A stretch of 21,002 bases of DNA, taken from the IMG/VR virus record IMGVR_UViG_3300036939_000016, positions 1 through 21,002 of that record, one strand, 5' to 3'. The DNA is from a virus. Every line of letters begins with the position of its first letter. Position 1 is the first letter of the stretch. The position numbers and the translations under genes are program-made. This document shows, piece by piece, positions 423-18,404 of the stretch. The notes beneath the pieces were generated by a model. That model worked only from the letters and a program-made list of their open reading frames with translations. It did no database searches and had not been told where the DNA came from.

Positions 423-455
423 GTTACTATTTAGGAAGTTAAGTAAGGAGTAGTG

Positions 456-770
456 ATGAGTCACCAACCGGAAGAGGTCAATGAATGGGGTCTAACTAGG
501 ACTCAGTTCTCATGGGTGTTAGACAGACAGCGTCAACTAGGCGGAAGTGCTGAGGCGTTCGACCGTGCATACCTAGAACTCACTGGGCTATTAACCCTAG
601 GTCAACAGTCGGGTGAGAGTTTGAGCATCAGAGTTGTCAGACCGGATGGCACCCGCAACCGTGCCGCTTATCGTGATGAGTCTGCCATATCCAACTATTA
701 CAGCATGAATGGCTACGGACTAGTTAACCAGGGTGAGTATGTCAGACTACGTTATGGGTATCCAGAATGA
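456..770 (+). CDS. hypothetical protein, 104 aa
   Basis: I do not recognise this protein. I chose the ATG at 456 because the ribosome binding site TAAGGAG (444-450) lies 5 nt upstream; a GTG at 453 would be only 2 nt away. The product is polar, with a probable helical N-terminal half (WGLTRTQFSWVLDRQRQLGG) and a C-terminal part with paired basic and aromatic residues (VRLRYGYPE). There is no signal peptide or membrane span. It is the first gene of a plus-strand run reaching 2467 and lies next to replication genes; no function can be assigned. Confidence 0.7.
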   Translation: MSHQPEEVNEWGLTRTQFSWVLDRQRQLGGSAEAFDRAYLELTGLLTLGQQSGESLSIRVVRPDGTRNRAAYRDESAISNYYSMNGYGLVNQGEYVRLRYGYPE

Positions 771-840: not shown

Positions 841-1437
841 ATGGTTGACATTATTCTACTGATGGGAGTATCTAAAGCAGGTAAGGATACGCTCTACCGG
901 GCACTGGTTGGCAGTGAGCTAGGTCAGACAGTCAAGCTGTTCAACCATAAGGTTGTAGGTTTCAGCAAGCGCCAATGGGAACTAGAATGGGGCTTACCTC
1001 ATGGGGCGTTAGAACTGCCAGAGGTCAAGAATATGGTTATACCCGGTCACCCGCAAGGATGGCGATACATTGACCTAATGGTACATCTAGCTAAGGAATA
1101 TGCCCTGCTCAACAGAAGACCTCAGCAGCTAGCACGGTTTAAACAAGATACTCAATGGCTGTTAGATAACGGGTTTGTGCCGGTGTTCACAGATGTTAGG
1201 ATGCCGGATGAGATGAGTCACATCATTGACTTACACATTGAAGGGCACCGGGTCTTACCATTCTTATTGAGCCGTGATGGTTGCGTGATGCTTGACAGTG
1301 ATAAGCACCTATTCGATAATATGTCAACCCTTGCCAACTTCGGAATAGATGTGATAGAGTTAACTCATAACGGTTCGCTGGATGAGTTGACCCATGATGT
1401 ATACCGATGTTATCGAGGCGAAGTTAGCAGAGTATAA
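841..1437 (+). CDS. putative deoxynucleoside monophosphate kinase (P-loop)
   Basis: The 198-aa product starts MVDIILLMGVSKAGKDT. The Walker A/P-loop GVSKAGKDT (residues 9-17) follows a hydrophobic beta strand, as in phage dNMP kinases of the T4 gp1 type, which phosphorylate dNMPs for DNA synthesis. A later segment, NGFVPVFTDVRMPDEMSHI, resembles the part of those enzymes that follows the lid (VxxDVRxxxE). An upstream ATG at 793 exists, but only the ATG at 841 has a purine-rich ribosome site (GAGGTTAGG) and starts right at the expected first strand. It overlaps the HNH gene by 44 nt. Substrate specificity cannot be read from the sequence; another adenylate-kinase-like P-loop kinase is the main alternative. 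Confidence 0.7.
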   Translation: MVDIILLMGVSKAGKDTLYRALVGSELGQTVKLFNHKVVGFSKRQWELEWGLPHGALELPEVKNMVIPGHPQGWRYIDLMVHLAKEYALLNRRPQQLARFKQDTQWLLDNGFVPVFTDVRMPDEMSHIIDLHIEGHRVLPFLLSRDGCVMLDSDKHLFDNMSTLANFGIDVIELTHNGSLDELTHDVYRCYRGEVSRV

Positions 1438-1822
1438 ACTTTGCAGCCGGTGTAAGGAGGTCAGACGGCTCACTGAGTTTAATGTCCACAGACAACGGAC
1501 AGATGGTAGACAACGTCAGTGCCGGTATTGTAACATTGAGTATCTCAAACAGTGGCGCAAGACTAGCCCTGATAAGTATGCTGAGGATAGGAACCGCTAC
1601 AGGGCACGGAAGGCTAACGCTGAGGTACCACTGACCCTTGAGGAGAGAGACACGGTAAGACGGCTCTATTCAGCCGCTAAATGGCTAACTCAGAACACCG
1701 GCACTGCCTACCACGTAGACCACATCATACCACTGTGTAAGGGTGGGTTACATCATCCGGATAACCTCAGAGTCATCACCGCAGAAGCTAACCTAAGAAA
1801 AGGAGGCAGACTAGAATGCTAA
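1394..1822 (+). CDS. HNH endonuclease with N-terminal zinc finger
   Basis: This 142-aa protein has two parts. Residues 17-46 carry CSRC and CRYC, a Cys4 zinc-binding pair. Residues 105-135 carry the HNH core YHVDHIIPL (His107, Asp109, His110), then HHPDNLRVI (Asn124) and a final Asn133. Such free-standing HNH nucleases are common in phages as homing endonucleases or, when next to packaging genes, terminase helpers; no terminase is seen nearby, so a homing or nicking role is more likely. Its start lies inside the 3' end of the kinase gene (44-nt overlap), and an alternative ATG sits at 1397. No intron or split gene is visible around it. Confidence 0.85.
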   Translation: MMYTDVIEAKLAEYKLCSRCKEVRRLTEFNVHRQRTDGRQRQCRYCNIEYLKQWRKTSPDKYAEDRNRYRARKANAEVPLTLEERDTVRRLYSAAKWLTQNTGTAYHVDHIIPLCKGGLHHPDNLRVITAEANLRKGGRLEC

Positions 1823-2055
1823 TATGTAATGGTAATAACTACGGGTTGACACTAACACGGGTGCAAGTTGAGACAGTCAACCGGGCTAATGAGTGGACAG
1901 TTATCATCAATGACCTAGTTGAGTCCGACCAGGTTAACCGCTTCCACGCCACTCACTCAACGGGTCGGGTATTTGGAGACATCAACGGGGTTATCTACGG
2001 AACATCTCAGAATATCATTGACGAATGGGTGACCATCTGCCATAATAGAGCATAG
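1816..2055 (+). CDS. hypothetical protein, 79 aa
   Basis: Unrecognised small soluble protein. The ATG overlaps the end of the HNH gene by 7 nt and is preceded by AAAGGAGG (about 1799-1806), a strong ribosome site, so translation is probably coupled. The composition suggests a small beta-rich fold (TLTRVQVETVN, WTVIINDLV, GRVFGDINGVIYG). No motif supports a function. Confidence 0.65.
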   Translation: MLICNGNNYGLTLTRVQVETVNRANEWTVIINDLVESDQVNRFHATHSTGRVFGDINGVIYGTSQNIIDEWVTICHNRA

Positions 2056-2067
2056 GAGGATAAATAA

Positions 2068-2331
2068 ATGAGTTGCCCACTTAATGCCCAAGGGTTCCAA
2101 GAGTGCCCAGTCGATAACCAGCCCATTGAGTCAGTCAGTCCGGTCATAGTAGACGACTACACCGGCAGAAGTCCTGCCACCGCTTCTAATGGTGTCTGGA
2201 TGAGTCATCTCATCATCGGTGTGGTGGTCTTCATCGTCCTGGCTTCATTGCTGAGGCGTGAGGCACCTGAGGACACACAAGAGACCAACAGCGACCAAGT
2301 CAACCCAACAGAGGATAACCGCCATGAATAG
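2068..2331 (+). CDS. small single-span membrane protein, 87 aa
   Basis: The ATG follows AGGAGGATAAATA, a strong ribosome site. Residues 1-43 are polar, about 44-62 form one hydrophobic span (MSHLIIGVVVFIVLASLL) and RR follows, so the positive-inside rule puts the acidic C-terminal tail (EAPEDTQE) in the cytoplasm and the N-terminus outside. It overlaps the next membrane-protein gene by 8 nt. A pair of tiny single-span proteins in one operon could be lysis proteins (holin/antiholin or spanin-like). There is no lipobox and the hub gene next door is on the other strand, so this is only a suggestion. Confidence 0.65.
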   Translation: MSCPLNAQGFQECPVDNQPIESVSPVIVDDYTGRSPATASNGVWMSHLIIGVVVFIVLASLLRREAPEDTQETNSDQVNPTEDNRHE

Positions 2332-2492: not shown

Positions 2493-4688
2493 CTATGTCA
2501 TCTGACCCTCAGTGAGGTTTGCTAAACCTACCGCTGAGGGTTTATTGAATGTTCGTGACCCGGTCTTAAACTGGTCTTTAGGATAGCCCTGCAAGTCCCA
2601 ATGAAGGTGGGCAGCAACACCACCAGTGTTACCACTCCGACCAATGACCTTAGCTCGTTGGACACTATCACCAGCCTTAACAAACATGGCGGATAAGTGC
2701 ATACACCTACTAGTACCACCGTCAGTATGTCTTATGGCAATGCAGTTACCACCAGCCCCAATGTTCTTGGCATACTCCACGACCCCATCATTCATTGCCA
2801 CTACTGGGATACCAATGGGCGTCCCGACATCCTCACCACAATGGGGGCTAGTACCTATGTTCCTTATCTTGGCACACCGACTGGTCACTGGATAGCCTGA
2901 CACGGGTCTAATATATCCCGTTGCCGTTGGCTTACCAGTGATAGGTGCCGGTTGAGCAGGGTCAGTGGGTGTTGTGTTGTCTAGCACTTCCACAGGACTG
3001 TAACAGTGTAAGACCGTGTGACCCTCCGCCAACCTATGCTCTACCTTATCAACGCACCATATCCGGCTGAGAACCCCTGGTAGACCCTCAGTGAGTACTG
3101 TCCAGAGTGGCTCAAACATGAGTGAGTTATTATCGAGTGGTATTGTAAACTTACTAGGGAGACCCTTTAACCGCTTAGTCCTAGACCGCATTGAGTCCGC
3201 TAGTCCAGCTTGCTCTTGACTTATTGACCCGGTAGCAGGGGCAACAGGTGACCCGGTAACATCCTTTGACGTTGCCGTATCAACATCGGGTTTGGTCTGA
3301 GTCAGTTGACCGGAGGCAATATCTAACTCAACCTTATTCTCAGACTGAAGCATTGAGCTGCTAGCATCCTCAGCCTCATCTGTCAAGGCTTTATCCTCAA
3401 TATCCCAGCTTATAAGGTTGAGACCCGGATATAGTACATATGCACTATCCACTAGGTTAGCCAGTGACTTAACCGTGATGACATTATTGACTGATGAAAG
3501 GAATAGACCGCAGCGGTCACACTCACGTTGAAGGAGCTGATAGTCAGAGATACCGGACTGGTCAATGTGTGTATATGTGAAGTCTTCAGGGGCTAACCAA
3601 GCTAACTTGACCTTATGAGCTAGCGCCACTCTCTCAGCCAGTTGCTTAAGGCTAACGCCCTGCTCAGTCTTAGACCTCTGACGCCTATTGAGTACCCATC
3701 TGACATCCTGACCGACGATAACCGTGCTGCCAGAGTCACTGGGTTTAGTGCCCTGATGAAAGAACTCAAAGCTCACATCCCCAATGGTCACAATGAGCTT
3801 ACCGCCTTTAACGATAACCTCAGGGCTGGTCTGAGAGGGTTGACCGGCTTGAGTCTCAGTAGCTACCGCCTTAACCGCAGTAGTACCACCGGCTTGAGCT
3901 TTCAGCGATGGAACCTCCTTAAGGATGGCTGTAGCTTCATTGGCTATCTTCTGACCATTCTTACCCTTGTCGCCGTTTATCATGCTTCTGGCGTTGTAGA
4001 AGTCCCGCTTAGAGCCATTGCAGTAGAAGCTAATAGGCTTACGGTTGGCGTACATCCCGTCCCTCATCCCAATGACTAGGGTCTGAGCAGCATAACGGGG
4101 TTCCGCTAACTTCTCCGGCGTTGCCACGGCATCAATACCTAACTTCTTAGACCACATCCCATAGGTCAGTTTGCCGGTCACCTGAACATAACCACGTCCA
4201 CGGTATTTATACCCATCACCGGGTTGGTCATTGCCGATATCTCTACGACCCTCTAAATACTGGAAGTAAGCTCTACTACCCTGCTCAACCATGTGGGCAT
4301 ACTTACCCGTTTCATGTTCCGCCGTTGCCAGTATATAGGCTATCTGTCCATCATCGGTTACCCCATTGGCTAAACACGTCTTAACAATGAGTAACCTATT
4401 CTCAGCTAGACCCTTAGGCGCTACCCCATCAACAACATTGATAGGTTGACCGCTAGCGTCCGCTGTAGGGGCTGATGTAGGCTGTACAAGGGGCTGAATA
4501 CCTCCGTTAGCCAGTGTATGCTCAATGAGCTTTGCAGCCGTCTTATGAGTGGGGTCAGCGATGGTCACTTGACAGGATGTTCCGCTCTTACCCTGACCAA
4601 TGGATACCCATAAGTCAGTAAGCATCCCGCCTTCACCCGTAGTCCATAGCTCATCGAACCCGTCAATATGTACTGATGCTGGTATCAT
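2493..4688 (-). CDS. baseplate hub protein with GH19 lysozyme and M23 peptidase domains
   Basis: This 731-aa protein should sit at the tail tip and cut the host cell wall during injection. Residues 1-55 and about 295-570 look like the two halves of a gpD/VgrG-type hub: a beta-rich start, then FEFFHQG and SDYQLLQRECDRCGLFL. Between them, about 95-260, lies a GH19 chitinase/lysozyme-like domain with AEHETG (catalytic Glu126 in HET), LEGRRDIGN, GDGYKYRGRGYVQVTG and a late YNARSMING. Residues 590-712 are an M23 zinc endopeptidase with complete metal and catalytic residues: H616xxxD620, CMHLS (His664) and HLH (694-696). The frame is open up to 4775, but the added 29 residues are basic and cross the divergent promoter region; MIPASVHIDG is a better hub start. 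The ATG lies 3 nt from a GTATAAATAC motif and has no Shine-Dalgarno sequence. Confidence 0.85.
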   Translation of the reverse strand: MIPASVHIDGFDELWTTGEGGMLTDLWVSIGQGKSGTSCQVTIADPTHKTAAKLIEHTLANGGIQPLVQPTSAPTADASGQPINVVDGVAPKGLAENRLLIVKTCLANGVTDDGQIAYILATAEHETGKYAHMVEQGSRAYFQYLEGRRDIGNDQPGDGYKYRGRGYVQVTGKLTYGMWSKKLGIDAVATPEKLAEPRYAAQTLVIGMRDGMYANRKPISFYCNGSKRDFYNARSMINGDKGKNGQKIANEATAILKEVPSLKAQAGGTTAVKAVATETQAGQPSQTSPEVIVKGGKLIVTIGDVSFEFFHQGTKPSDSGSTVIVGQDVRWVLNRRQRSKTEQGVSLKQLAERVALAHKVKLAWLAPEDFTYTHIDQSGISDYQLLQRECDRCGLFLSSVNNVITVKSLANLVDSAYVLYPGLNLISWDIEDKALTDEAEDASSSMLQSENKVELDIASGQLTQTKPDVDTATSKDVTGSPVAPATGSISQEQAGLADSMRSRTKRLKGLPSKFTIPLDNNSLMFEPLWTVLTEGLPGVLSRIWCVDKVEHRLAEGHTVLHCYSPVEVLDNTTPTDPAQPAPITGKPTATGYIRPVSGYPVTSRCAKIRNIGTSPHCGEDVGTPIGIPVVAMNDGVVEYAKNIGAGGNCIAIRHTDGGTSRCMHLSAMFVKAGDSVQRAKVIGRSGNTGGVAAHLHWDLQGYPKDQFKTGSRTFNKPSAVGLANLTEGQMT
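2505..2541 (+). terminator. terminator hairpin inside the 3' end of the hub gene
   Basis: Nested arms ACCCTCA (2505-2511) and AGGTTT (2515-2520) pair with AAACCT (2524-2529) and TGAGGGT (2535-2541) around the loop GCT, and TTTATT follows on the plus strand. It lies 38 nt after the last plus-strand stop but within the last codons of the minus-strand hub gene, so one DNA stretch appears to serve both. Confidence 0.55.
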
Positions 4689-4691
4689 TGA

Positions 4692-4701
4692 GTATTTATA
4701 C
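4692..4701 (-). promoter_or_regulatory. late-promoter-like GTATAAATAC motif before the hub gene
   Basis: Read on the minus strand, the sequence is ATAGGTATAAATACTCAATG, ending in the hub start codon. TATAAATA equals the T4 late promoter core. If it works at T4 spacing, transcription would begin at or next to the ATG and the mRNA would be leaderless. The same layout occurs before the spike and sheath genes. Confidence 0.5.
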
Positions 4702-4704
4702 CTA

Positions 4705-4734
4705 TTGACCTTATAAGTTAGTATCTGATATCTT
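4705..4734 (+). promoter_or_regulatory. sigma70-type promoter for the gene at 4766
   Basis: TTGACC (4705-4710), an 18-nt spacer and TATCTT (4729-4734) precede a leader that ends in GATAGACACAAAGGAG. The leader GATATAGATAGAC is nearly repeated before the gene at 10733. The match to consensus is moderate. Confidence 0.4.
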
Positions 4735-4765
4735 AGATATAGATAGACACAAAGGAGTTTAACCC

Positions 4766-5011
4766 GTGACCACATTCCAACAGTTCCAAACCAATGTTCT
4801 CAACGTCCTACCACACCCTACAATGCGCTTCACCGATGAGTCTACACAGTACCGCGCTACAGTGACCTATCCCGACACTCAGCACACTTGTACAGTCATC
4901 TTGACCCGTGCTAGCGGTATCTACAGCATCACTGAGCGGTACCCTAACACAACCTATCACGGGTCTGCTACTGACCTCAGACGCGCCTATCAGAACCTCC
5001 AACCGCAGTAA
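4766..5011 (+). CDS. hypothetical protein, 81 aa
   Basis: Unrecognised. It starts with GTG, chosen because AAAGGAG (4751-4757) lies 8 nt upstream and no ATG follows nearby. The product is polar and Thr/Tyr-rich and looks like a small beta-sheet domain ending in a helix (TVTYPDTQHTCTVILTR, IYSITERYPNTTYHG, TDLRRAYQNLQ). It is the first gene of the plus-strand accessory block and is transcribed away from the hub gene. A hairpin terminator follows at 5035. Confidence 0.65.
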   Translation: MTTFQQFQTNVLNVLPHPTMRFTDESTQYRATVTYPDTQHTCTVILTRASGIYSITERYPNTTYHGSATDLRRAYQNLQPQ

Positions 5012-7236: not shown

Positions 7237-7255
7237 ACCTATTTCCTCAATATTT

Positions 7256-7302
7256 TATAACAATGCCCGGTGATAACAAAGTCACTGGGCATTATTGTTA
7301 TA
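7256..7302. terminator. large hairpin, probably a two-way terminator
   Basis: AATGCCCGGTGA (7262-7273) pairs with TCACTGGGCATT (7282-7293) with one G-T pair, and the stem continues outward as TATAAC (7256-7261) with GTTATA (7297-7302) after a 3-nt bulge. The stem totals 18 bp around an 8-nt loop. A/T-rich flanks on both sides suit termination in either direction. It marks the left border of the non-coding control region 7237-7643. Confidence 0.65.
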
Positions 7303-7327
7303 AGGCTGACTTATAGGCTGACTGTCT

Positions 7328-7358
7328 TATTGAGAATGACCCCTCTATATTCTCAATA
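7328..7358. repeat. 10-bp inverted repeat
   Basis: TATTGAGAAT (7328-7337) and ATTCTCAATA (7349-7358) are perfect inverted copies separated by 11 nt. Just before it, GGCTGACT occurs twice (from 7305 and 7317). It is the second dyad of the control region; the role is unknown. Confidence 0.5.
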
Positions 7359-7406
7359 GTGGCGTTAGGGCAATATTTCAAGTTGGGTCTGTTATTTGCG
7401 TAGCCA

Positions 7407-7420
7407 GGTCAAATATGACC
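7407..7420. repeat. palindrome GGTCAnnnnTGACC
   Basis: GGTCA (7407-7411) and TGACC (7416-7420) surround AATA. The overlapping 13-mer CAGGTCAAATATG (7405-7417) is repeated exactly at 7634-7646, where its last three bases are the start codon of the ribbon-helix-helix gene. A protein-binding site is plausible. Confidence 0.45.
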
Positions 7421-7426
7421 TACGGA

Positions 7427-7524
7427 GGCTGTAACCCTTACTGTGTATACATTCTTGGTAGGTCTCAAGCAGGTCAGTGGTAGCCTACCAAATGAGCCAT
7501 CCTTACACCATAAGGGTTACAGCC
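7427..7524. repeat. 98-nt dyad with three nested stems
   Basis: The outer arms GGCTGTAACCCTTA (7427-7440) and TAAGGGTTACAGCC (7511-7524) are a perfect 14-bp inverted repeat. Inside, GTGTA (7443-7447) pairs with TACAC (7504-7508), and TTGGTAGG (7455-7462) pairs with CCTACCAA (7484-7491), leaving a 21-nt loop. It could form a long RNA hairpin, a DNA cruciform or an origin-type structure. No coding frame or transposase is associated with it. Confidence 0.6.
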
Positions 7525-7533
7525 ATTAGTCCT

Positions 7534-7566
7534 GTAGACAGGTCGTAGACAGCCCGTAGACAGGTC
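7534..7566 (+). repeat. 11-bp direct repeats, cluster 1 (three copies)
   Basis: GTAGACAGGTC (7534-7544), GTAGACAGCCC (7545-7555) and GTAGACAGGTC (7556-7566) lie head to tail with an exact 11-bp period, about one helical turn. They are upstream of the TATAAT promoter of the ribbon-helix-helix gene. The pattern fits an operator or iteron array for a helical-phase DNA binder. Confidence 0.8.
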
Positions 7567-7576
7567 AGTGAATAGG

Positions 7577-7605
7577 TGGGCAAGATGCCTAGGTCACGTT
7601 ATAAT
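7577..7605 (+). promoter_or_regulatory. promoter with perfect TATAAT between two repeat clusters
   Basis: TATAAT (7600-7605) is a perfect -10 box. TGGGCA (7577-7582), 17 nt upstream, is a weak -35 box (4 of 6). The start site would fall near 7612, inside the second cluster of 11-bp repeats, so proteins bound to the repeats could block or recruit polymerase. Confidence 0.65.
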
Positions 7606-7606
7606 G

Positions 7607-7639
7607 GTAGACAGGACGTAGACAGGACGTAGACAGGTC
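7607..7639 (+). repeat. 11-bp direct repeats, cluster 2 (three copies)
   Basis: GTAGACAGGAC (7607-7617), GTAGACAGGAC (7618-7628) and GTAGACAGGTC (7629-7639) have an exact 11-bp period. The cluster begins right after the -10 box and ends 4 nt before the ATG of the ribbon-helix-helix gene, so it covers the whole leader and displaces a normal ribosome site. Confidence 0.8.
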
Positions 7640-7643
7640 AAAT

Positions 7644-8945: not shown

Positions 8946-8974
8946 AGTGACGTAAAAGATGTCACACTAAATAG

Positions 8975-9004
8975 TTGACAGGGCAGCATCTACCGAGCTA
9001 TATT
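8975..9004 (+). promoter_or_regulatory. sigma70-type promoter with upstream element
   Basis: TTGACA (8975-8980), an 18-nt spacer and TATATT (8999-9004). The upstream sequence GACGTAAAAGATGT, ending 11 nt before ATAGTTGACA, recurs almost exactly before the promoter at 16697 (GACATAAAAGATGT). Confidence 0.7.
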
Positions 9005-11465: not shown

Positions 11466-12231
11466 TATCCAGTATTTGACTTAAAGGGTTGCGGTCATTC
11501 TCCACCATCACTGAACCACTGGACTTAGGCACGTCCGGTGGCTTCTTGCTTGGGTCAGTTATCGGGTGTTGGGGCTTAGGGGTGATACCTAGCTCAGTGA
11601 GCTTACCCGCCTTACGTCCATCAATAGTTACCTCCCCAGCTTCGCTGACTTTAATAACCGAACTGGGTTTAAAGTTGAGTTCCGCTGCCTTCTTAGTGTC
11701 CTTAGTCAGCAGTGCCTTAACCTCTTTAGCATATTCCTCCCGCTCACGCTCACTGAGCTTAAGCACCTTACCACTCAATGAGTTATCTACCGGCTTAGGC
11801 GCTAGCTTAGGCACTGGATACACCGGGCACGGCACCAGTGACAGGTCAATGATGGCATGGGTCAGCACACCCCCAGTCATCAGCCTCCGGTTGACCTTCA
11901 TACTCAACAGCTTTACACGGTCTAGTGCTATGTCACCCCATTGGACTGTTATCACAGGGGTATCATTGACTTGTGACACCGGGAGGGTTAGAGCAATGAG
12001 CCATTTAAGCTCAGTGGTGACAGGCAAACCACGGTTGAACAAATGAACCTGCGGAAGCTCAATGGTGTTCTCTGAGTATTTATACTTTATAAGGGGGTTA
12101 GCCGTGTACAGCACCGGGAGCTTGCTAACCTCTTGCTTGTAGACCTCATCCAATGACTGAGCCATAGTGAGGTTTATAGTGGTGTTATCATCCAGTCGCT
12201 TAAGAGTCACTGGGATACTGGCTGTTACCAT
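11452..12231 (-). CDS. tail tube initiator / baseplate protein (CIS-tube type), 259 aa
   Basis: It lies directly after the tape measure gene (4-nt gap), where contractile systems carry a LysM-type tube-initiator or baseplate protein (XkdP, T4 gp53, Afp7). The middle fits that class: ENTIELPQVHLFNRGLPV, LKWLIALTLPVSQ, TPVITVQWGD, LDRVKLLSMKVNRRLMTGGV and IIDLSLVPCP. The second half is a charged helix (SEREREEYAKEVKALLTKDT) and a Pro/Lys/Asp-rich tail; I see no clear LysM domain. It probably joins tube to baseplate. Assignment rests on position and pattern, so a different baseplate part is possible. Confidence 0.55.
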   Translation of the reverse strand: MVTASIPVTLKRLDDNTTINLTMAQSLDEVYKQEVSKLPVLYTANPLIKYKYSENTIELPQVHLFNRGLPVTTELKWLIALTLPVSQVNDTPVITVQWGDIALDRVKLLSMKVNRRLMTGGVLTHAIIDLSLVPCPVYPVPKLAPKPVDNSLSGKVLKLSEREREEYAKEVKALLTKDTKKAAELNFKPSSVIKVSEAGEVTIDGRKAGKLTELGITPKPQHPITDPSKKPPDVPKSSGSVMVENDRNPLSQILDTSQG

Positions 12232-12235
12232 TGGC

Positions 12236-14080
12236 TTAGGTCAGTTGTTGGGTAAGGGTTCGGTCATATTCGGTTCTGAAGGCACTGATAACCATGTTCA
12301 CTAGCTCAGTGGGGTTAGCGGCATTGGCACCATTGATGTTTATGACTGGGTTAAATGCTGTCTGCTGTACCGTGCTGTTATTGTTTGACACCGTAGCGGG
12401 CGCTGGAAGAGGCTGTGAGCCACTGGGTTGAGCTAGTGGTAGAACTGATGGGTTAGCCGTGGTAGGGCTACTGGAGGCGCTAGCAGGTGCCTCACCGGGT
12501 TGTTGACCGGGTATGATAGACCTTAGTTTGTCAATGCCCGCCGCTACTGCATCCTTTACTGGTTCCGGTACTAGCTTACTCACTGCCTCCGGTGCCGATA
12601 CTCCGCCGCTAAATGGGTTAAGCTTCTCAATGAACCCTCTGACCCGGTTGTATCCATCCTCAAATATCTCACCGATGCGCTGCAACACTGACTTGATACG
12701 GTCTAGCACCGGGTCAACCAATGACTTGACATCTGACCACTTATCTGATACCCATTTAAACAGGTTGGAGAGGTCGCGGTTGAAGCCACTGCCTAACCCC
12801 TTCATCCCTCTACCTAGGTCATTGGTGGCAACTTGGAATACTCCACCCAGTAGCCCCATAAAGAAGCTAGTTCCGAACTTCGTTACTGCCATGATGACCG
12901 CTAGCCACAGGGCAGGGTCAAAGATGACCTCAGCTAGGAATATAGCTCCCTGCATCGCCACAGTACCAAAGAATGAACCCATGTTACTGCCGAAGCTTGC
13001 CCAGTCCACTGAGTTGATGAGACCGGTCACTGATGCCCCTAGCTGGTTTGCTACCTTGGATGGGTCAAAGGTTCTGATAAAGTCCCCTAACCCGGCAAAG
13101 TATGACCCCACAGACCCAATGAGATGACCGACTAAGTCCGTGGGACTAGTCCCGTTGAAGTCTTCAAGGGTTGCCTCAAAGCCCGTAACCCATGACCCAA
13201 TAAGGTCGAAGAAGTCTATCACCACGGTCATTGGGTCAAACGTCAAGCCTAGCTTACTGAGCAGCTTGTTAGCCGTGTTACCCATTGAGTCTATACGGCT
13301 CAGTAGGTCGGTGAAGGCATCCATAGCCGTCCTATCACCCCTAGACCTCACTGCCCGCATAAAGCCAAATGTGCCTATGTCCTGGTTAGTCAGGTTATCT
13401 TTCCAAGCTTGCAGGATGCTGTCAGCCGTGTTCTTTATCTCATTTATCATCTGGTCAGGGGTCAGTTGCTTGAGGACGGTCTCAAGTATTCTCTGCCTCT
13501 GAGCAGATGACATCTTCTTAAAGTCCTGAGTAGTCTTACCTATCTGGGTTAACCGCTCATTGACCTTCATCACAAACGCAGGGTTACGGTCATCAAAGCT
13601 TAACGGGTTCAATGACGCTAGCGTGTTACCAACGCTTAAGAACTGCTTCATGTAGTACGCGGTATCCTGTGCCTGAGTTCCGCTGGCTTGACCCAACAGC
13701 ACAGCCCTCTTAGATAGCTCAATGAGGTCGGTCTTAAACGTCTTGACCCCCAACTGGTCAGATAGGTCATAGTTCTTAGCAATGACCCCTTGGATGCTCT
13801 GAGCAAAGCTCTGGTAGTCCTTAGTCACCCCTGGTAACTCAGCGGCAACTTTAGCCAGCTCAACGTTGAGGTCTTTAGTGAAGCCCTTAGCATTCTCGAA
13901 GCTCATACCAGTGACCGCACTGAGAGACCCTGAGTTAGCTAAGAAGCTAGTCTGAAGCTTTATAGACTCCATCAGTTGACCCTGTAGACCACTGAAGGCT
14001 TTAGTAGCAAAGCCGGTGATGTTGGACACCACACCGCTTATCATATCATTGGCTACTAGGTCAACTAAGATGCTACTCAT
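12236..14080 (-). CDS. tail tape measure protein, 614 aa
   Basis: This protein sets tail length and is ejected through the tube. It has the usual features: helical, Gln/Lys/Ser-rich N-terminal half (about 1-290), hydrophobic central region at 365-418 (GAIFLAEVIF, LWLAVIMAV, FFMGLLGGVF), amphipathic helices at 430-490 and a Pro/Ser/Ala-rich, low-complexity stretch near 515-575. At about 1.5 angstroms per residue it predicts a tail of roughly 90 nm. The start ATG overlaps the stop of the frameshifted chaperone (ATGA), the standard arrangement of chaperone before tape measure. Confidence 0.9.
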   Translation of the reverse strand: MSSILVDLVANDMISGVVSNITGFATKAFSGLQGQLMESIKLQTSFLANSGSLSAVTGMSFENAKGFTKDLNVELAKVAAELPGVTKDYQSFAQSIQGVIAKNYDLSDQLGVKTFKTDLIELSKRAVLLGQASGTQAQDTAYYMKQFLSVGNTLASLNPLSFDDRNPAFVMKVNERLTQIGKTTQDFKKMSSAQRQRILETVLKQLTPDQMINEIKNTADSILQAWKDNLTNQDIGTFGFMRAVRSRGDRTAMDAFTDLLSRIDSMGNTANKLLSKLGLTFDPMTVVIDFFDLIGSWVTGFEATLEDFNGTSPTDLVGHLIGSVGSYFAGLGDFIRTFDPSKVANQLGASVTGLINSVDWASFGSNMGSFFGTVAMQGAIFLAEVIFDPALWLAVIMAVTKFGTSFFMGLLGGVFQVATNDLGRGMKGLGSGFNRDLSNLFKWVSDKWSDVKSLVDPVLDRIKSVLQRIGEIFEDGYNRVRGFIEKLNPFSGGVSAPEAVSKLVPEPVKDAVAAGIDKLRSIIPGQQPGEAPASASSSPTTANPSVLPLAQPSGSQPLPAPATVSNNNSTVQQTAFNPVININGANAANPTELVNMVISAFRTEYDRTLTQQLT

Positions 14081-15093: not shown

Positions 15094-16608
15094 TCAAGCG
15101 TTGCCGTTGCTGTTGTCAGCACCATCGGGGATATCATCAGCGGGTGCCTCAGCGGATACATCCACAGTGAAGTTCTCACCCAGTGATGCCCGTCTGATGT
15201 TCACAATAAAGAACTCAAGCACAGGTGAGGGCTTGACATCAGCATCTAGGTTGAGGATACCGGACTCTAACCCATTGAATGAGTTGTTAGTCATATCACA
15301 CGTTACCCGGTATGCTTCATCAGGGGTCTGACCAAACAACCCACCGGCACGTCTAACATCCTCTAGGATGGCGCTAGCAGTGCCCTTAGCCCGTGCCATC
15401 ACTGTTCCATACCCGTTGATGGTCTTGAAGACAAAGCCCTTGAATGCGTTCTCAAGTGCCTTAGTACAGACGTTCAGAATGACCCGTGTAGTCACCCATT
15501 TATAGAATGGACTGGTTGAGACTGTTCTCACGCCCCAAATGACTGTACCTTGTCCGTTGGGTAACTGCCGACCTGGGTTAATACCGGCTGGATAGAGGCT
15601 ATCTTGCATGATGTCAGTGACATCGAACGTGAATGACTTGACCCCGTACAGTGGGAACTCGGTACCGGCTGGCGGCTCAACGAAACCCTCCTGCTGATAA
15701 CGTCTTAGCGTCAACCCAGCAACACCAGCACTCAATGGTACTTGGTTATCGTTCTCATCAATGGCATATGGCATATAGTACGCTAAGTGACCCCGTGGTG
15801 ACTGTAACTGACCTACCTCAGCCAATGCACCCGCGACAGTACCACCGGCTGTAGTACCATTGGCTACACCAGCACTACAGTCGGCATAGGCTACCCACTT
15901 ATACTTCCGGTCAGCGCAATGAGCTTCCATTGAGGTCGCAAGTAACTTCCGGTCATTGGCTACTGACCACCGCTGAAAGAACTCAGGGGCAATAAGGAAG
16001 CCTTGTCCCATATCCGACCGCATCACCGCCAACGCATCCAATACATCACCCAGCACGGGATAGGTATTTGTACTCACTGAGCCTAGAGTGACGTTAGACG
16101 ATACACTGACCGCAACGCCAGACGCATATCTCAATGTGGTACCTCGGATAGATGCAATAGTTGAGAGCTTACCGTTAACCTCATCTGCCAACCGCTCAAT
16201 GATGACGCTTGCTGTATCCCCAGTGACCGCTACCGTTGAGGCGGCATATCCATCAATGGTTACTGTGTAGGTGTTACCTACGGTTACTGTAGGAATGGTC
16301 AATGACCGCTCGGTTCTCACAGGGATGTTATAGAAGTAAAGCCCCTGCCCGTGTAACTGCTTAAAGTACAGCCTCACTGAGTTGATACTATATGAGGCTC
16401 CTAGCTGGTTATAGAAGTCACTAGGACTTGATACCAGTGTAAGCTTGCCGGATGTTTCAGGCTTCCCACCCGCATAACCTAGCATATAGACTCGGTTATG
16501 TGCCGGTAGACTGGCTGGGATAACCCCTACCGTGGTCTCAGTGGTATAGACCCCTGGTGTGTATACTTGACTACCTGCTACTGAGATGTTATCAGCCATA
16601 GTGACCAT
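15094..16608 (-). CDS. contractile tail sheath protein, 504 aa
   Basis: The start QVYTPGVYTTETTVGVIPA is the N-terminal strand-swap region found in sheath proteins (xPGVYxxE), and the C-terminal half contains INPGRQLPNGQGTVIWGVRT, KWVTTRVILNVCTKALENAF and FIVNIRRASLGENFTVDV, all family hallmarks. The middle (about 115-200) is a variable Thr/Val-rich surface domain. The tail TPADDIP-like end here reads APADDIPDGADNSNGN, acidic and disordered. It heads the minus-strand tail module. Two ATGs are possible, 16608 and 16599 (MADNISV); the first lies 4 nt from a GTATCAATAC motif. Neither has a Shine-Dalgarno sequence. Confidence 0.93.
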   Translation of the reverse strand: MVTMADNISVAGSQVYTPGVYTTETTVGVIPASLPAHNRVYMLGYAGGKPETSGKLTLVSSPSDFYNQLGASYSINSVRLYFKQLHGQGLYFYNIPVRTERSLTIPTVTVGNTYTVTIDGYAASTVAVTGDTASVIIERLADEVNGKLSTIASIRGTTLRYASGVAVSVSSNVTLGSVSTNTYPVLGDVLDALAVMRSDMGQGFLIAPEFFQRWSVANDRKLLATSMEAHCADRKYKWVAYADCSAGVANGTTAGGTVAGALAEVGQLQSPRGHLAYYMPYAIDENDNQVPLSAGVAGLTLRRYQQEGFVEPPAGTEFPLYGVKSFTFDVTDIMQDSLYPAGINPGRQLPNGQGTVIWGVRTVSTSPFYKWVTTRVILNVCTKALENAFKGFVFKTINGYGTVMARAKGTASAILEDVRRAGGLFGQTPDEAYRVTCDMTNNSFNGLESGILNLDADVKPSPVLEFFIVNIRRASLGENFTVDVSAEAPADDIPDGADNSNGNA

Positions 16609-16612
16609 AAGA

Positions 16613-16622
16613 GTATTGATAC
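16613..16622 (-). promoter_or_regulatory. GTATNNATAC motif before the sheath gene
   Basis: The minus strand reads ATAGGTATCAATACTCTTATG, less its first base: the same layout as before the hub and spike genes, with TATCAATA as core and the start codon 4 nt beyond the motif. It is the only promoter candidate for the main tail operon in this window. Confidence 0.45.
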
Positions 16623-16696
16623 CTATAGACTGTCACAGCTAGCGCTGTCCTCATTGGTGTAAGTCATTATGACATAAAAGATGTTAGAGAATATAG

Positions 16697-16725
16697 TTGA
16701 CATCACTGGTCAGACTTGCTACTAT
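16697..16725 (+). promoter_or_regulatory. strong sigma70-type promoter of the non-coding RNA/tRNA unit
   Basis: TTGACA (16697-16702), a 17-nt spacer and TACTAT (16720-16725). The upstream element GACATAAAAGATGT followed by ATAGTTGACA matches the promoter at 8975. Transcription would begin near 16732 and read into the tandem repeats and tRNA-Trp. Confidence 0.75.
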
Positions 16726-16761
16726 ATAAGAGTAAGAGACAGGGAGACAAGAGCCGGTTGT

Positions 16762-16810
16762 TGAGGTAGTGAGTAATAAGGGCGGGTTACACTGCATCCT
16801 TTCACACCCA
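16762..16810 (+). repeat. 49-nt structured repeat, copy A
   Basis: TGAGGTAGTGAGTAATAAGG at the 5' end and CATCCTTTCACACCCA at the 3' end flank a variable middle. GGT and GTGA (A bulged between them) pair with TCAC-ACC, and AAGG pairs with CCTT after a 5-nt bulge GTAAT. The result is an 11-bp bulged hairpin with a loop of about 16 nt. Copy B lies 110 nt downstream with 44 of 49 identical bases. Confidence 0.7.
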
Positions 16811-16871
16811 ACGCATAACTAGCAGTTAGTCAAGACTGACTCTTACAAACCTGGTTATCCTGGTTGACCGC

Positions 16872-16920
16872 TGAGGTAGTGAGTAATAAGGGAGGTTTAG
16901 GCTTCATCCTTTCACACCCA
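16872..16920 (+). repeat. 49-nt structured repeat, copy B
   Basis: Identical to copy A at both ends; all five differences fall in the 14-nt middle, which forms the hairpin loop. Constant stems and bulges with a changing loop suggest selection on RNA or DNA structure. The 61-nt interval shows no third copy, but GTGAGTAA recurs once more near 17018. Confidence 0.7.
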
Positions 16921-17122
16921 GTCAAGGTCAAACTAATGTTAACCATTTCTCAATGTTACATTCTTGTTTGTAGGGACTCAGACGCCGTTGAGGACTGAAA
17001 GCATCCGAGAGGGTGAGTAAACCTAGCGTTCTGAAAGGTCTACGAACTGGTCAACTACCCGCCTAATGGGTCAGGTTAATGAGCGAATGTTGATAGCTCA
17101 TTGGTCTGATACCAGAGGGCAA

Positions 17123-17165
17123 CATCTAACAGAGAAACGAGTCAACATAGGGACTCTGTTAGGTG
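17123..17165 (+). other. 12-bp stem with possible pseudoknot to the tRNA 3' end
   Basis: CATCTAACAGAG (17123-17134) pairs with CTCTGTTAGGTG (17154-17165), with one G-T pair. Its 19-nt loop contains AACGAGTCA (17136-17144), perfectly complementary over 9 bp to TGACTCGTT (17246-17254), which includes most of the 3' acceptor strand of the tRNA-Trp. The long-range pair and the tRNA acceptor stem exclude each other. Confidence 0.5.
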
Positions 17166-17180
17166 CGGTGGTTACCTCAT

Positions 17181-17252
17181 GGGTCAGAAATGCTCACGGT
17201 GAGCTATTAGCCTCCAAAGCTGATGGTTAGGGTTCGACCCCCTACTGACTCG
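17181..17252 (+). tRNA. tRNA-Trp (anticodon CCA)
   Basis: Folded by hand. Acceptor: GGGTCAG (17181-17187) with CTGACTC (17245-17251), 7 bp with one G-T. D arm: GCTC/GAGC with a short loop ACGGT. Anticodon arm: TTAGC/GCTGA (one G-T) with loop CTCCAAA, U33 present, anticodon CCA at 17214-17216. Variable loop TGGT. T arm: TAGGG/CCCTA with loop TTCGACC. Discriminator G73 (17252), a bacterial tryptophan identity base. The total is 72 nt. No CCA is encoded directly after it. Oddities are the short D loop, four bases instead of two between acceptor and D stem, and no U8. It may be a degenerate or specialised phage tRNA. CCA anticodon agrees with UGA being a stop here. Confidence 0.7.
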
Positions 17253-17280
17253 TTGTCCAATAACCTTATCTTATACATCA

Positions 17281-17547
17281 ATGAGTCAAGAGTGTTTACA
17301 GCTTATCTTCCAGTCCTTTGAGGGTGCCCCGTGGTCAGATGTACAGCCCAGTGACCATATCATCTTATTAGCACTGGCTGAGTCAATGTATGTAGAGCGG
17401 TCGGGTGTTCTGTACCCTATCACTGTCCGGTGTGGTGCCGGTGGTATCCCGAGAGACTCACTGCGGGCTAGGCAGTTATACCTAGAGAAGCACGGCTATC
17501 AGAACACCAGCATCTTGTCAACTCTAGAAGGCTATGAAATGGCATGA
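17281..17547 (+). CDS. hypothetical protein, paralog of 17544-17762, 88 aa
   Basis: Unrecognised. No ribosome site precedes the ATG; instead TTATACATCAATG resembles the motif-plus-start arrangement of the late genes. The C-terminal half, LYPITVRCGAGGIPRDSLRA and LYLEKHGY, aligns with the next protein (AYPIIVTRGNLPQGGYRSIK, YLESQGY). The N-terminus is acidic and helical. It overlaps the next gene by 4 nt (ATGA). It lies before the tail fibre genes, so a small structural or assembly role is possible. Confidence 0.6.
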   Translation: MSQECLQLIFQSFEGAPWSDVQPSDHIILLALAESMYVERSGVLYPITVRCGAGGIPRDSLRARQLYLEKHGYQNTSILSTLEGYEMA

Positions 17548-17762
17548 CTATTAAGTTAGGTTACAAAGTGGCACCTAATGCGGCAACCCTGCCAGTGAGT
17601 ACCAATGACCTGTTATTTATTAAGGAGAATGGTCAGGTCAGTGTTGCGATAGGTCAATATGCCTACCCCATCATTGTGACCCGTGGTAACTTACCTCAAG
17701 GCGGTTACCGGAGTATTAAGACCTATCTAGAGAGCCAAGGCTACAGGGTCATCATTGACTAG
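17544..17762 (+). CDS. hypothetical protein, paralog of 17281-17547, 72 aa
   Basis: It shares with its upstream neighbour a strand YPI-V, a Gly/Pro turn, an Arg-containing helix and the end YLExxGY. The preceding part is a beta hairpin (NDLLFIKENGQVSVAIGQYA). The ATGA overlap supports the start and translational coupling. The function is unknown; tandem duplication of a small domain is likely. Confidence 0.6.
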   Translation: MTIKLGYKVAPNAATLPVSTNDLLFIKENGQVSVAIGQYAYPIIVTRGNLPQGGYRSIKTYLESQGYRVIID

Positions 17763-17767
17763 TGACA

Positions 17768-17784
17768 GTCTATAGTATATAGAC
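17768..17784. promoter_or_regulatory. inverted repeat GTCTATA-n3-TATAGAC
   Basis: A perfect 7-bp inverted repeat with a 3-nt centre, 11 nt before the ATG at 17796. It contains TATAGT and TATATA, possible -10 boxes, and could be a promoter with an overlapping operator for the tail fibre operon. Confidence 0.35.
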
Positions 17785-17795
17785 ATAATAGGTCA

Positions 17796-18404
17796 ATGGT
17801 CAGTATAAACTACAATGAAGCATGGTATAGAGGTAGACCGGTATACAACCGGCTGCCTCTTTCTGGCTATCAGGATAACTCAGCGGTTGACGCCATCACT
17901 AAGCCCATTGACCTTAAGCTGATGTCAGTTAAGGGTACTCTAGAGGCGCTAGCAGAGGCGCTAGACCCGGTCAACTGCCCAGTAGGTTATCTTGACTATG
18001 TAGCATATCTCAATGGGTTCTCTGGGCGGTATTGGGATGCTCTATGGACTAATGAGGTTAAGCGGCAACTGGTCACTGATGCCCGGTACATCTGGGCTAA
18101 CCGAGGTAAGGCTGAGATAGTCAGCAAGGTTCTAACCATCCACGGGATAACCCATGATGTCTGGAGAACCGGGTCATTGACGCTACCCTTTACCTTAACC
18201 GCTACATTCTCAACGCCTCAGATGTTGACCTATATCCGGCTTCCGTTGAGCTATCTTAGGGCATCAACTCAGTGGCGTGAGGCGGAACGCACCCGTAAGA
18301 ACTTCTTACACTGCGGCATTAAGACCCGTGTTGTCTATGATAAGTTCTATCTTGGGTTCTCTAAGCTGGGTGACCCATTATTTACTAGAGGTATAATGAC
18401 GTAA
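17796..18404 (+). CDS. baseplate/tail protein I (P2 gpI-like), 202 aa
   Basis: The layout is that of P2 gpI: a start with LPLSGYQDNSAVDAITKPID, then the PVNCPVGYLDYVAYLNGF motif followed by WDALWTNEVKRQLVTDARYI and WANRGKAEIVSKVLTIHGI, which correspond to the LPWLAWxxxVD...W......KR.....A......RGT..AI...L...G pattern of the family. The protein links baseplate wedge and tail fibres. It lies immediately upstream of two fibre genes, as in P2 (I then H). The ribosome site is weak (AGGTCA); the inverted repeat at 17768 lies just upstream. Confidence 0.8.
   Translation: MVSINYNEAWYRGRPVYNRLPLSGYQDNSAVDAITKPIDLKLMSVKGTLEALAEALDPVNCPVGYLDYVAYLNGFSGRYWDALWTNEVKRQLVTDARYIWANRGKAEIVSKVLTIHGITHDVWRTGSLTLPFTLTATFSTPQMLTYIRLPLSYLRASTQWREAERTRKNFLHCGIKTRVVYDKFYLGFSKLGDPLFTRGIMT

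Follow-up and report, generated by a model that had tools for sequence, protein, structure and literature searches.

A putative noncoding RNA gene with twin hairpins and a tRNA-like end in a cyanophage-like myovirus

The locus and its viral setting

The analysed DNA (the window) is a viral record of 21,002 bases from a contractile-tailed phage, a myovirus, and the features of the locus are listed in Table 1. The sheath proteins nearest to that of the window were those of Nostoc phage N1, A-1(L) and Leptolyngbya phage Lbo402-yong5, phages of filamentous cyanobacteria, and the tail protein I, the hub/lysozyme protein and a polymerase fragment of the window agreed with this affinity. Judged by these similarities, the virus is probably a cyanophage and its host would be a cyanobacterium. 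The tail hub protein (760 aa, 2493-4775 on the minus strand) was found to comprise an endolysin/chitinase-like domain fused to an M23 peptidase. Scans of viral contigs yielded four clear relatives, which have 7-11 proteins in common with the window at about 23-48% identity, namely G014 (46,452 bases, probably complete because the hub gene spans the contig ends), G024 (46,406 bases), G046 (46,420 bases) and G023 (a fragment of 21,285 bases).

Table 1. Features of the noncoding locus and its neighbouring genes (positions in the window)
Feature	Position	Strand	Evidence or remark
Divergent tail sheath gene	15094-16608	-	31-35% identity to cyanophage sheaths
Upstream element TAAAAGATGTTAGAG	16675-16689	+	Identical 15-mer before G046 noncoding-unit promoter
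Sigma-70-like promoter, TTGACA-17-TACTAT, TG-extended	16697-16725	+	10/12 consensus
Predicted noncoding structured RNA body	16726-17180	+	MFE -154.6, z -3.76
5' strand of closing stem P1 (GTAAGAG)	16732-16738	+	Pairs with 16840-16846, probability ~1.0
Hairpin copy 1 (49-nt core 16762-16810)	16760-16812	+	Repeat and fold prediction
3' strand of P1 (CTCTTAC)	16840-16846	+	Pairing probability ~1.0
Hairpin copy 2 (49-nt core 16872-16920)	16870-16922	+	Repeat, fold prediction, compensatory changes relative to copy 1
18-bp hairpin in RNA body	17067-17114	+	MFE and centroid structures
12-bp hairpin in RNA body	17123-17165	+	Inverted repeat I8, 92% complementary; MFE/centroid structures
tRNA-Trp(CCA)-like element, very small D loop	17180-17253	+	ARAGORN
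First downstream ORF, 88 aa	17281-17547	+	ORF list
Tail protein I-like gene, first of the tail-fibre genes	17796-18404	+	Pfam Tail_P2_I 1.8e-7; phrog_32946

The minus-strand sheath gene is separated by 672 nt without protein genes from plus-strand ORFs that begin at 17281 and run into the tail-fibre genes; the first of these ORFs had no match in Pfam or PHROG. An earlier reading made from the sequence only had described two 49-nt elements here as the first thing transcribed from a promoter and as followed by no protein gene for about 360 nt. A promoter-like site does lie just upstream of them, and the next candidate gene begins 361 nt past the second copy. However, the interval is not empty, as the tRNA-Trp-like element at its end had been missed and 16726-17180 is strongly folded.

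An exact copy of TAAAAGATGTTAGAG stands at 17226 (+) in G046, likewise preceding a noncoding unit and its promoter, and no other exact copy was found across the five genomes. A copy with three mismatches precedes another promoter at 8953 of the window, and the region of the 16697 promoter resembles the promoter region 8948-8980 (82% over 33 nt). A reading of the reverse strand as a T7-like promoter, with ACTCACTA lying in the repeat, was rejected: the sequence lacks a GGG start and has no further copy in the window. The search for a phage-type RNA polymerase carries no weight here, as it drew a blank in the relatives and in the control genomes alike.

Twin hairpins within a folded noncoding stretch

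The two 49-nt copies, 110 nt apart, were recovered as reported, with 44 of 49 positions identical, and each half-pattern of the 49-mer was confined in the window to the two copies (0.13-0.15 chance matches expected). The conserved bulged stem was likewise reproduced, the hairpin predicted in both copies being the same, its bulges measuring 1 nt, 5 nt (GUAAU) and, in addition, 2 nt (AU). Taken singly, the hairpins were of ordinary stability (z -1.1 to -1.5). The statement that the five changes are confined to the loop proved wrong: three fall in the loop (16786, 16790 and 16791 in copy 1 numbering), and the other two form a compensatory stem pair (16783/16794), C22-G33 in copy 1 becoming A22-U33 in copy 2. 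A second compensatory pair lies just outside the 49-mer (U-A 16761/16811 to C-G 16871/16921), and one further flanking pair, 1-2 bases beyond the 49-mer, changes from G-C to G-U. As a result, eight of 53 columns differ between the copies, five of them paired, and pairing is kept in all five. Such complete preservation arose in 0.13% of random placements of eight changes (P ~0.001) and in 6.6% of cases when random letters were put in the same columns, the structure having been predicted from the same two sequences whose changes were scored. The preserved pairing may thus be taken as support for an RNA structure, not as proof of it.

The 55-nt flanks of the two hairpins share 33% and 29% identity, inside the range of shuffled sequences, while the stems, the bulges and the loop triplet UUA stayed constant. 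Because the flanks are unrelated, either the hairpin alone was copied or the hairpin alone was kept, and either way it is the hairpin that forms the unit. Two compensatory changes, unrelated flanks and a place right behind the promoter speak for the part of the earlier claim that these elements act as RNA. As stand-alone RNA elements they were not borne out, since both copies sit within one long noncoding stretch that ends at the tRNA-like element, and copy 1 lies innermost in a 115-nt domain, which the 5' end of the transcript would close through P1 (GUAAGAG/CUCUUAC). Base pairing is possible between GUUAC, the terminal loop of copy 1, and the conserved GUAAU bulge; its computed energy is weak, and copy 2 retains its UUA/UAA core. 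Noted post hoc, this hints at a possible contact between hairpins.

None of 100 shuffles folded as well as the plus strand of the RNA body, and a second calculation gave z -2.9. The minus strand of the same stretch reached z -2.5, so symmetric hairpins supply part of the plus-strand signal. Coding controls of equal length ranged from z +0.7 to -2.6, and the sliding-window folds placed 16961-17120 among the strongest on the plus strand, with similar values in some coding windows; fold energy alone is therefore not decisive. The longest stop-free stretch in the body measures 156 nt.

The tRNA-like element ends 27 nt ahead of the first downstream ORF and scored 27.1 bits with the Rfam tRNA model, below the gathering score of 29 bits. 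A T-arm/acceptor minihelix is a minimal kind of RNase P substrate, and the element has the corresponding 7-bp acceptor and 5-bp T stem (7+5 bp). It could also be an ordinary tRNA. A remnant of a tRNA array was rejected, the noncoding stretch holding a single T arm, and no tmRNA gene was found in the window by ARAGORN or cmscan.

Known RNA families and the arrangement in related viruses

The covariance search that the sequence-only reading had proposed for the element found no homologues, an outcome which that reading had itself named as refuting it. The model built from the two copies matched only itself in 23 sequence sources (best other match 14.1 bits, E 1.2), and the 49-nt hairpin model had no match in 48 related phage records, in two cyanobacterial genomes with a related sheath gene or, under stricter filters, in 292 cyanobacterial genomes. 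No DNA similarity to 16600-17300 was detected among 50,697 phage records, nor any exact 20-mer of the element in viral contigs; a single gapped-pattern match in viral contigs fell inside a recombinase-like gene and was set aside as chance. That the element matches no known riboswitch or phage RNA class was upheld: no Rfam family reached its gathering score in the window, and across the searches at gathering and permissive E-values only tRNA was found, the other matches being at chance level or overlapping tRNA. GOLLD and ROOL gave no covariance match (cmscan; the window at the gathering score, 16600-17300 at E 5). What recurs across the relatives is a larger arrangement, not the 49-nt element.

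The case for this arrangement covers five genomes, the window and its four relatives. G014, G024 and G023 (46-48% sheath identity) share the order of a promoter, then a noncoding RNA (175-630 nt), then a tRNA or minihelix, the latter being a T-arm/acceptor element that closes the noncoding units. G014 carries a tRNA-Ile (68.5 bits) behind a promoter-led noncoding RNA (z -2.8 to -4.3), together with a second unit whose 5' part is similar to the first and which ends in a 57-nt element of acceptor and T arm. The unit of G024 is 630 nt long and has a degenerate tRNA at its end (23.9 bits), an element that scores 41.3 bits with the tmRNA model (cut-off 47). The 175-nt unit of G023 ends in a 58-nt minihelix followed, as in the window, by the tail protein I gene, and those of G014 and G024 stand ahead of other genes. 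The 57-58 nt elements of the second G014 unit and of G023 are too short for full D and anticodon arms. Every noncoding gap of the five genomes was searched for a minihelix (5-bp T stem, TTCGA loop, 6-7-bp acceptor), which returned four, in the window, G014, G024 and G023, against 0.025 in shuffles; beyond these and the tRNA-Ile of G014 there were no further matches. The sole T arm in a gap of 784 kb of other viral sequence belonged to one real tRNA.

Fold energies were low for the bodies of the first G014 unit (-4.3), G023 (-4.3) and G024 (-2.3), and three of the nine units (the second of G014 and G046a and G046b) folded no better than shuffles. None of the four promoter-led noncoding units of G046 ends in a minihelix, apparent terminators standing there instead. 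A first domain closed by the 5' end was seen in the window, G046a, G046c and G046d; this similarity is weak evidence, since purine-rich leaders are also carried by mRNAs of these phages. The unit bodies cannot be aligned between viruses and what is shared is the arrangement, not the body sequence, which allows a common arrangement only and not a common origin of the RNAs.

Several further noncoding stretches were recorded in the course of these comparisons. In G046 a pair of paralogous small RNAs, each about 130 nt long, is predicted at 742-869 and 424-551 (-), with strong promoters and terminators and with a closing stem that stays paired through change on both sides; a covariance model of the two matched only themselves. 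Also in G046, 1233-2190 (+) is promoter-led and mostly noncoding (about 900 nt), ends in a terminator-like hairpin and is no more stable than shuffles. A-1(L) and Lbo402-yong5 were checked for further units and no minihelix was found in them. The gap 11953-12546 of A-1(L) holds similar promoter-led noncoding stretches (about 12127-12345 and 12440-12520), the first ending in a terminator-like hairpin, and these are possible small RNAs of a cultured cyanophage.

Candidate interpretations

The best reading of the locus is a lineage-specific noncoding RNA that would be released by host tRNA-processing enzymes, with the twin hairpins as putative duplicated binding sites. Quite possibly, though we hold this tentatively, the hairpins are duplicated domains of one noncoding RNA gene of about 450 nt in a cyanophage-like myovirus, its product being cut free at the tRNA-like end. 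The order of promoter, body and tRNA-like element is read from the DNA as predicted features; processing and function are what we infer from it. The promoter with its conserved upstream element would start an RNA whose first 115 nt fold back around the first hairpin copy; the second copy and several long hairpins would come next, and the degenerate tRNA-like element would close the unit before the tail genes. Host RNase P may then cut 5' of the minihelix and RNase Z or CCA enzymes may act 3' of it. The tail mRNA would in this way be severed from the noncoding RNA, whose 3' end would be set by the cut. The paired 5' end would make for a long-lived folded RNA, on which the two hairpins may present a duplicated site that binds a protein or some other RNA.

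Known systems offer partial parallels. The large phage RNAs GOLLD and ROOL frequently lie close to tRNAs and assemble into RNA cages (PMC12286853). The window RNA shares with them the setting of a long structured noncoding phage RNA adjoining a tRNA, a loose feature that is insufficient for membership, and it differs in length (about 450 nt, where many GOLLD RNAs exceed 800), in lacking shared sequence and in having no Rfam match at E 5. It is not a member of either family, and by analogy of setting a similar way of working is possible. RNase P processes phage RNAs that are not tRNAs, such as M3 RNA and antisense C4 RNA (PMC11143913). The likeness to these lies in the T-arm/acceptor minihelix of the window RNA. 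Its body is much longer than either of them, and cleavage here is predicted. With tmRNA it has in common a longer RNA with a tRNA-like end, but its acceptor strands lie about 70 nt apart and are not split by the body.

A wider claim, which we consider rather unlikely, is that these units form an undescribed class of cyanophage noncoding RNA genes. Each would have a strong promoter and a structured body, 175-630 nt long, that evolves fast, and its 3' tRNA or minihelix would serve as a processing and protection signal. The window member would add two hairpin docking sites, formed possibly through pairing of the copy 1 loop, GUUAC, with the GUAAU bulge in copy 2 or in a separate molecule, as in an RNA-only assembly. 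The functional role of the large phage RNAs near tRNAs (GOLLD, ROOL) remains unexplained; if the claim is true, compact units with fast-evolving bodies that retain a promoter and, at the 3' end, something tRNA-like, reduced in the extreme case to a T-arm/acceptor minihelix, would link the nearness of tRNAs to a concrete role in RNA 3' processing, which could then be tested.

Among the alternatives to a released RNA, the strongest, though still unlikely, takes the stretch for a 5' leader that regulates the tail-fibre operon, with the hairpins acting in cis, by antitermination or by binding a regulator, on read-through into 17281 onwards. Phage HK022 has tandem hairpins, the put antiterminator RNAs, right at the start of a transcript, and the window transcript would begin in the same manner. 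The plus strand shows no terminator-like site from the 16697 promoter to the tail genes, and the G023 unit too directly precedes its tail protein I gene. Unlike put, however, the body in the window is long and ends in a tRNA-like element, which a leader does not need, and the units of the relatives precede differing genes (those of G014 and G024) or apparently end in terminators (G046). A second promoter-like site (17762-17789) stands right ahead of the tail genes of the window.

Marginally more doubtful is the view that the locus is a normal phage tRNA gene whose precursor carries a long leader, in which case the RNA ahead of the tRNA would be a by-product and its hairpins would only shape processing. 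ARAGORN calls the window element a tRNA-Trp and the full-score tRNA-Ile of G014 occupies the corresponding place, but the window element stays below the family cut-off, two of the other elements have no room for both remaining arms, and a tRNA needs no leader of such length (175-630 nt), let alone one with compensatory changes, as in the window. Tandem operators acting in the DNA downstream of the promoter are improbable: a near-identical pair within 160 nt behind a promoter with mostly invariant stem bases would suit them, yet every paired change keeps pairing and the window holds no other copy. Repeated short hairpins behind a promoter might also suggest CRISPR-repeat mimics (RNA anti-CRISPRs) or duplicated genes for small peptides (GTG frames VSNKGG..ILSHP, in which two of the five changes are synonymous), readings that we regard as barely credible, given that 49 nt with a long internal structure presumably exceeds usual CRISPR repeats and that the frames span only 17 and 38 codons, GAGG lies too near GTG for a ribosome site and three of the five changes alter residues.

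Two other elements were noted elsewhere in the window. A near-palindromic motif of the GAGTATAAATACC / GAGTATTTATAC type occurs at six places (4690, 6674, 6871, 9370, 10654 and 12074; 0 expected in shuffles), several of them near gene starts, and also in G014, G024, G023, G046 and A-1(L), being absent from Lbo402-yong5; it has a TATAAATA core and may be an operator, or an element like a late promoter, that these phages have in common. The noncoding stretch 7237-7643, which carries a strong hairpin and several GTAGACAGGTC iterons upstream of two paralogous ribbon-helix-helix-like genes (7644 and 8051), is a possible partition or autoregulation site.
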